Of a stretch of DNA of 64,000 nucleotides, positions 44,365 through 45,330 are shown piece after piece. Source of the DNA: Ilumatobacter fluminis (GTDB lineage: Bacteria; Actinomycetota; Acidimicrobiia; Acidimicrobiales; Ilumatobacteraceae); contig NZ_SOAU01000001.1 of NCBI RefSeq assembly GCF_004364865.1, forward strand, positions 806,001 to 870,000. The letters are read 5' to 3'. Both the position numbers and the translations under genes were made by a program. Under the pieces are notes generated by a model. That model was not told where the DNA came from. It made no database searches and saw only the letters and a program-made list of their open reading frames with translations. How positions within the stretch are numbered: position 1 is the first letter of the stretch; the number at the start of each line of letters is the position of its first letter.

Positions 44365-44460
44365 GGAGGTGTCTGGGTACCTGGTGGGCTCCGCCGCCTT
44401 CAAAGCGGTTGGGACGGGCGATCCCCGTCCGGCGGGTTCGATTCCCGTCCACCTCCGCCA
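44365..44460 (+). tRNA. selC: tRNA-Sec (selenocysteine), anticodon TCA
   Basis: A long tRNA of 93 nt plus encoded CCA. Acceptor GGAGGTG/CACCTCC with G73; anticodon arm CCGC-CTTCAAA-GCGG with anticodon TCA at 44400-44402 (reads UGA); an extended variable arm (GGGACGGGCGATCCCCGTCC) and T loop TTCGATT. The CTTCAAA loop followed by GTTGGG matches Escherichia coli selC as I remember it. It implies the genome decodes some UGA as selenocysteine; selA, selB, selD and any selenoprotein must lie elsewhere. Confidence 0.95.
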
Positions 44461-44466
44461 CGCGAG

Positions 44467-44493
44467 CCCTGCCCCCGTTTATCGGGGGCAGGG
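44467..44493 (+). terminator. Terminator of selC
   Basis: An 11-bp perfect stem, CCCTGCCCCCG/CGGGGGCAGGG, with loop TTTAT, 6 bp after the encoded CCA. Confidence 0.8.
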
Positions 44494-44574
44494 CGTCGCT
44501 CGTTCGTGAGGGCGATCGCCGGGGTGGATGCTCGCGCCGGATGACGGCCGGTTCGCTTGGCTAGCCTGGATCCC

Positions 44575-45330
44575 ATGCGACCGGAGCACGCTGACGAACT
44601 CGACGGTGTCGAGTTCGACGCGCTCCGTGCCGCGCTCGACGATCTCGATGCGTCCGACGTCGAGATGCACATTCCGCCGCCGTCGATCTGGAATGCCATC
44701 GATGCGTCCGCTGCTTCGGAAGCGGCGCGCCGTGCGCCCGGGCGGATGGCCGTGCCGTCGACCGTCGTCGAGTACACCATCGACGAGCACGACGCCGTCG
44801 TCGGCGTCGGCGGCCACTGGGCCGAGTTCGCGGCCGACAACGGTGCCGCCGAGCTCGTCGCGCCGCCGGTCGACCGGACGCTCTGGTCGTACTTCGACCA
44901 GCCAGAGGTCAGAGAGCTCTGGCAGATGGTCGTGAGCCACGTGCGTGCGCACGCGGCGTCGGCGAGATTGCCGTTCCGATGCGACGCGCCTCAGGCTCGC
45001 CGCTGGTTCGAGATGACGGTCGCGCCGGCGGCCGCGGGCCAGATTCACTTCCGTTCCGAGCTGGTGTTCGAGGAGGAACGGTCGCCGATCGCTCTGCTCG
45101 ACGCAACCGTCGAACGAGCCGCTGATGTCGATCCGGTCACGGTGTGCACATGGTGTGGTCGGGGTGACAACGGTGGCGACTGGTTGGAGATCGACGAGTT
45201 GTTGCGGTCCCAGCGGCTCCTCGAACGCACTGCGCTGCCGGCGATCACGTGGAGCATCTGTGCGCCGTGCCGTGACGACATGACCGCCGAACTCCTGGTG
45301 GCCGGCGGCATCGCCGACGCCTCGGCCTGA
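44575..45330 (+). CDS. PAS-like protein with C-terminal Cys-pair motif, function unknown
   Basis: A 251-residue soluble protein. The middle (about 65-170, VVEYTIDEHDAVVGVGGHWA, FEMTVAP) resembles a PAS-like fold. The C-terminus has two CxxC pairs, VCTWCGRGDNGGDWLEIDEL and WSICAPCRDDM, a layout I recall from bacterial sensor proteins of the CSWC...GICP-C type, perhaps binding zinc. The N-terminal PPPSIWNAI is reminiscent of anti-sigma-linked proteins. No catalytic domain is fused. ATG 44575 follows TAGCCT (44562-44567) by exactly 7 nt: leaderless. It is 12 bp ahead of an alpha/beta hydrolase gene, so the two are likely an operon. Confidence 0.6.
   Translation: MRPEHADELDGVEFDALRAALDDLDASDVEMHIPPPSIWNAIDASAASEAARRAPGRMAVPSTVVEYTIDEHDAVVGVGGHWAEFAADNGAAELVAPPVDRTLWSYFDQPEVRELWQMVVSHVRAHAASARLPFRCDAPQARRWFEMTVAPAAAGQIHFRSELVFEEERSPIALLDATVERAADVDPVTVCTWCGRGDNGGDWLEIDELLRSQRLLERTALPAITWSICAPCRDDMTAELLVAGGIADASA

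Follow-up and report, generated by a model that had tools for sequence, protein, structure and literature searches.

A selenocysteine tRNA gene, a complete selenocysteine-decoding gene set and six genes most likely read through UGA in Ilumatobacter fluminis

Results

The tRNA-Sec gene and its surroundings

The stretch of I. fluminis DNA analysed here (64,000 nucleotides, hereafter the window) carries a gene (selC) of 96 nt, including an encoded CCA, for tRNA-Sec, which inserts the 21st amino acid, selenocysteine; it lies at positions 44365–44460 on the plus strand. ARAGORN called it as tRNA-Sec(TCA), and Rfam RF01852 matched it from end to end with 66.6 bits (E 2.2e-11; gathering score 47). 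The anticodon TCA, which reads UGA, occupies 44400–44402 (ARAGORN, anticodon at position 36) in the loop CTTCAAA, the variable arm is long, with a 7-bp stem, and the 3' end consists of a discriminator G followed by CCA, both encoded in the DNA. A sequence-only reading had proposed a selenocysteine tRNA from the anticodon, the variable arm and the loop, and both programs agree with it, to the exact base at either end. Across 150 genomes of the family Ilumatobacteraceae, tRNA-Sec genes scored 58.8–67.7 bits in the Rfam search, and the next-best RF01852 matches, at 53.1 bits or less, had lengths that look like those of other tRNAs.

The gene is flanked by a D-2-hydroxyacid dehydrogenase gene on the minus strand and, on the plus strand, by a gene without a Pfam family and then an alpha/beta hydrolase gene. 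Folding indicated that a strong hairpin follows immediately on the 3' side of the tRNA (44462–44499, plus strand; −37.0 kcal/mol and z −6.6 for the region 44461–44510). It lacks a T tract, and a search for a T-tailed terminator 3' of the tRNA found none; the hairpin is a possible 3'-end signal, acting in processing or termination.

Secondary structure of tRNA-Sec

We aligned 16 of the 31 tRNA-Sec sequences collected, 15 of them distinct, leaving out duplicates and one mis-bounded copy. The alignment favours a 7-bp acceptor stem (44365–44371 with 44450–44456) and a six-pair D arm (44375–44391) from which an A bulges out at 44379, arranged as 4 bp, bulge, 2 bp and a TGGT loop; 98.9% of the D-arm cells are paired in this form, and two of its pairs have changed on both sides. 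The variable arm (44412–44430) has a 7-bp stem and a 5-nt loop, with four pairs changed on both sides. The T arm (44431–44449) can be read with six pairs, including the G–C pair 44431–44449, which makes an acceptor/T stack of 13 bp; its columns are invariant and thus give no covariation support, so that the sixth T pair is allowed only. With the bulged D stem, 7-bp acceptor and 6-bp T stem, 99.6% of 465 cells pair in the 15 distinct sequences, and nine pairs have changed on both sides, against a shuffle mean of 1.6 (0 of 500 shuffles as high). We preferred this version to one whose acceptor has 8 bp and whose D stem lacks the bulge; there, only 95.3% of cells are paired and pair 8–66 is never formed.

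The gene shares with bacterial tRNA-Sec (RF01852) the TCA anticodon, long variable arm, discriminator G, CCA and a full-length match, and differs in its bulged D stem and unpaired base 8, the latter also common across the phylum. Base 8 (T, 44372) stands opposite C at 44449, and none of the 23 distinct family sequences pairs it. The usual bacterial 8/5 fold (8-bp acceptor, 5-bp T stem) is thus absent, pair 8–66 being T–C in 15 of 15 distinct sequences of the alignment. Among 24 distinct tRNA-Sec sequences from the best 30 loci by score in a phylum-wide sample (L148–L177), base 8 is unpaired in 18; base 66 pairs with base 8 in six, and in 16 its pairing with the base preceding the T stem is possible, which gives two ways of retaining a stack of 13 pairs. 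The 8/5 fold is therefore no defining feature of tRNA-Sec, 7/5 forms having also been published. An initial view of the 7/6 stack as a speciality of the family was dropped, since the same 16 phylum sequences allow it. The Secmarker paper describes D-stem bulges in Clostridiales, 12-bp stacks in other groups, and 7/5 forms (PMC5330540).

Selenium machinery

The genome is a single contig of 4,775,416 bases, to which we applied NCBIfam profile cut-offs. One gene each exceeded the cut-off for selA (genome positions 766771–767898, minus strand; 405.6 bits, cut-off 267.9), selB (765588–766661, minus; 271.9 bits, cut-off 242.25) and selD (3521124–3522032, minus; 324.5 bits, cut-off 125), all on the same contig as the tRNA-Sec gene and the first two about 40 kb before the window. 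The sequence-only reading had staked its claim on the presence of these three genes, and with selC they complete the Sec-decoding set. Ten further matches to the SelB profile did not reach the cut-off; these are presumably ordinary GTPases of translation.

Genes with an in-frame UGA

Six genes, lying about 0.5 to 3.7 Mb from the window, run through an in-frame TGA within a recognisable domain. Formate dehydrogenase alpha (FdhA; 649 aa from ATG; UGA at 1379218–1379220, minus strand) and the UGSC protein (173 aa from ATG at 3091836; UGA at 3092112, plus) contain one TGA each, in the contexts DSCNRT-U-HAPSV and DUGSC. The other four are a ResA-like WAxxUGC protein (UGA at 4588567, minus; APYUGCS), which scores 553.5 bits with NCBIfam WAxxUGC_long (cut-off 300); a TlpA-like protein with a ResA/TlpA-like domain and a long N-terminal extension (UGA at 3132168, plus; WAPWUSTC); a Prx-like protein with an AhpC/Redoxin domain (UGA at 4191657, minus; GDWUPYC); and a SelW-like protein of the Rdx/SelW type (UGA at 1672726, minus; YCVPU), which is over the TIGR02174 cut-off. 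Three of the 13 AhpC-TSA matches in the genome contain one TGA, as does the single Rdx match; none of the three CMD-family matches does. Six is a lower bound, the genome search having covered a set of families outside which stand HesB, DsbA, ArsC, GrdA and GrdB, among others. The motifs UGSC, CxxU, UxxC and UGC are tabled for known selenoproteins (PMC2398784), and the UGA in these six genes is most likely read as selenocysteine.

The suggestion that some UGA codons may be mis-annotated as stops thus holds for six genes across the genome and finds no instance inside the 64-kb window, where a coding-potential scan, extended to nearby stretches, gave no convincing recoded UGA. The scan's best match in the window, a TGA at 45328, is the end of one gene, followed in the same frame by the start of the alpha/beta hydrolase. 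Its sensitivity is low, since the FdhA TGA lay outside its best seven for the genome.

Recoding signals after the UGA

The sequence-only reading had proposed a search for in-frame TGA codons followed by hairpins in formate dehydrogenase or similar genes, and conserved downstream hairpins were found for two of the six, FdhA and UGSC. In a check made without preselection for TGA, the FdhA codon before HAPSV was TGA at all 34 loci, drawn from 32 genomes. Among 25 distinct windows of sequence after this codon, a set chosen with TGA in the search pattern, GTC GGT CTG is identical in all, and GTG and GCC in 24 each. The exception, L110, carries GTC and GCG at these two sites, a double change that keeps the stem around the GGUCU loop. 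This loop probably resembles the signal of E. coli fdhF.

For UGSC, the Sec codon is TGA in all 80 named loci, these being the best 80 of 578 confirmed. An 8-bp hairpin follows across codons 4–10 after the UGA. Its serine codon is AGT in 76 of 76 distinct windows, against 4% of 537 serine codons in the flanks of the same genes, and the codons GTG and GAC are likewise each present in 76 of 76. Pair 17–29 is always standard (GC in 66, AT in 7, GT in 3; 0 of 20,000 shuffles as good), and pair 15–31 is broken in 7 of the 76 windows. The WAxxUGC, TlpA-like, Prx-like and SelW-like candidates had no match in the loci from other genomes (1.41 Mb searched).

A split formate dehydrogenase

The formate dehydrogenase locus (contig positions 1374964–1379493, minus strand; 8964–13493 of L024) consists of fdhA with its UGA, a NuoE–NuoF fusion, and an iron-sulphur gene ending in a Mo-4Fe4S domain (PF04879). 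This domain usually begins the catalytic subunit of formate dehydrogenase; here it closes the third gene, which lies two genes downstream of the one holding the Sec codon. FdhA matches TIGR01591 with 659.3 bits, below the single-chain cut-off of 666.25 and over profile positions 51–672 only, because profile positions 1–49 and PF04879 sit on the third subunit. FdhA thus looks, by its sequence, like the catalytic subunit of a formate dehydrogenase with its first domain carried by another chain. The same three-part order occurs at three other loci (L110 in G012, L111 in G019 and L146 in G054); the Mo-4Fe4S part was not found in the other 30 loci searched, most of which are too short to reach that gene.

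In Actinomycetospora chiangmaiensis, FDH3 is described as a cytoplasmic enzyme of Sec-containing FdhA, FdhB and FdhC (640, 614 and 316 aa), and formate removal or oxidation in culture is described as selenium-dependent (PMC7176365). The subunits in I. fluminis are an FdhA of 649 aa, a NuoEF fusion of up to 585 aa and an iron-sulphur subunit of about 280 aa. From subunit sizes and roles, rather than sequences, we infer that the layout is probably homologous to FDH3 as described there.

The UGSC protein and its partner

A family relative of the UGSC protein matches PF24696 (E 4.5e-46) and NF041046 (163.9 bits, cut-off 125); the I. fluminis copy is 71% identical to it and carries the motif DUGSC, which places it in the UGSC family. 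An AlphaFold2 model (27 close sequences; pLDDT 89.5) has the order E-H-E-H-E-H-E-H-E-H, five strands alternating with helices, and places Sec93 right after strand 85–91 and before helix 94–109. The predicted order differs from that of thioredoxin. In Foldseek the best match was a flavodoxin (E 1.5e-4); Foldseek and VIA matches are to flavodoxin-like and other common alpha/beta folds, and thioredoxin is absent among the matches listed (50 each). The UGSC profile, run against PDB sequences, gave no match of weight. A presumably similar motif in GrdB-type selenoproteins suggested a possible link between the two; Pfam gave no second family even at E 10. A 2008 ocean survey counts UGSC among the major selenoproteins, with a higher frequency in non-marine samples and some fusions to an unknown domain, and describes it as likely Trx-like (PMC2398784), whereas the model here predicts a five-stranded alternating beta-alpha structure.

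Directly upstream on the same strand lies a partner gene (contig positions 3090343–3091818, plus; 8343–9818 of L142) combining a thioredoxin-like and an unknown domain. It is similarly placed in 74 of the 80 named UGSC loci, and three of the six loci without it have less than 1,400 bases of upstream sequence. In a further count of 36 loci, mostly from the family, a UGSC match was present in 35 and the partner in 30. The N-terminal thioredoxin-like domain of the partner scores 19.9 bits, below the cut-off, and PDB thioredoxins match at E 0.0016 and up; no Pfam family was found for the protein. Its model is poor (pLDDT 72.4) and gave weak matches, to thioredoxins only. One family genome (G019, contig C1, 1393564–1394043; L145) has a distant second UGSC copy, also with TGA, in which the partner-like part lies downstream instead, and similar paralogues occur in several other family genomes.

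Distribution in the family and phylum

Among the 150 Ilumatobacteraceae genomes, tRNA-Sec (58.8 bits or more) was found in 103 and selB in 116 at E 1e-60 or better, with 112 of these exceeding the cut-off. Both were present in 100 genomes, tRNA-Sec only in three, selB only in 16 and neither in 31; with many of the genomes incomplete, little weight attaches to any single absence. A UGSC-like match is present in 106 genomes, of which 104 are Sec-positive, and a close relative of the I. fluminis FdhA in 49, of which 47 are Sec-positive; the latter count leaves out 25 genomes with only distant matches (less than 40% identity). Ten of the 119 Sec-positive genomes (tRNA-Sec or selB) have neither UGSC nor a relative of this FdhA, which may reflect incompleteness or other selenoproteins. 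One UGSC piece, in G124, does not extend as far as the Sec codon, and TGA is missing from a paralogue in G113 and from a second match in G078. In G118, selB (contig C8, 24300–25517) contains an inner TAA, and tRNA-Sec and UGSC were undetected; a recent loss of the Sec trait is possible there.

Across the phylum sample, tRNA-Sec (E 1e-9 or better) was present in 164 of 296 genomes, in keeping with the earlier remark that selenocysteine use is patchy among actinobacteria, though in Ilumatobacteraceae it is common. General surveys of the Sec trait are available (PMC5029168, PMC13188914); our search of open-licence PubMed Central found no paper on the trait in Ilumatobacter or Ilumatobacteraceae, or on selenoproteins of Acidimicrobi-.

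Discussion

We consider it nearly certain (probability about 0.97) that this selC is functional, that it works through a SerRS/SelA/SelD/SelB route, and that UGA is read through in six or more genes of the genome. Taking charging, recoding and protein activity from the known bacterial pathway, the observed genes, in-frame UGA codons and two hairpins would act together as follows. The tRNA-Sec would presumably be charged with serine by SerRS, SelA would make Sec-tRNA using selenophosphate from SelD, and SelB would bring the Sec-tRNA to UGA codons with a hairpin downstream, allowing the UGA to be read through in the formate dehydrogenase alpha, UGSC, WAxxUGC, TlpA-like, Prx-like and SelW-like genes.

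Conceivably, selC is a remnant, an ordinary suppressor tRNA gene or a gene resembling tRNA-Ser, in a genome that has lost Sec insertion. Several acceptor-stem and D-stem pairs are flagged by Rfam as non-standard, and the 31 family genomes with neither tRNA-Sec nor selB would fit such a loss. However, the odd D-stem pairs vanish under the covarying bulged D stem, selA, selB and selD are intact and over their cut-offs, and six open genes depend on the tRNA, which together make this explanation highly improbable. We give equally little weight to the view that the in-frame TGA codons are sequencing errors or pseudogenes. It is least improbable for the WAxxUGC, TlpA-like, Prx-like and SelW-like copies, whose relatives were absent from the 1.41 Mb searched. 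Against it stand a TGA at the same codon in every UGSC locus checked (80/80) and every FdhA locus checked (34/34) and the synonymous sites frozen into a hairpin after it, and UGSC, CxxU, UxxC and UGC are motifs of known selenoproteins as tabled in PMC2398784. The tRNA-Sec of I. fluminis belongs to a known system, as an ordinary and functional representative in a family where the Sec trait is common.

More tentatively, and at somewhat less than even odds, UGSC may be a flavodoxin-like or Rossmann-like selenoenzyme in which cysteine is unusable, working with a dedicated partner of thioredoxin-like and unknown domains, and may be the main reason why the family keeps its Sec system. If true, this would also account for some of the UGSC signal that has been reported for fresh, estuarine and hypersaline waters. 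In this genome, standard gene calling would truncate six or more proteins at the active-site codon. Because UGSC occurs in most Sec-positive genomes of the family, with UGA in all of the named copies checked, Ilumatobacteraceae offer a clear system for probing the role of UGSC.
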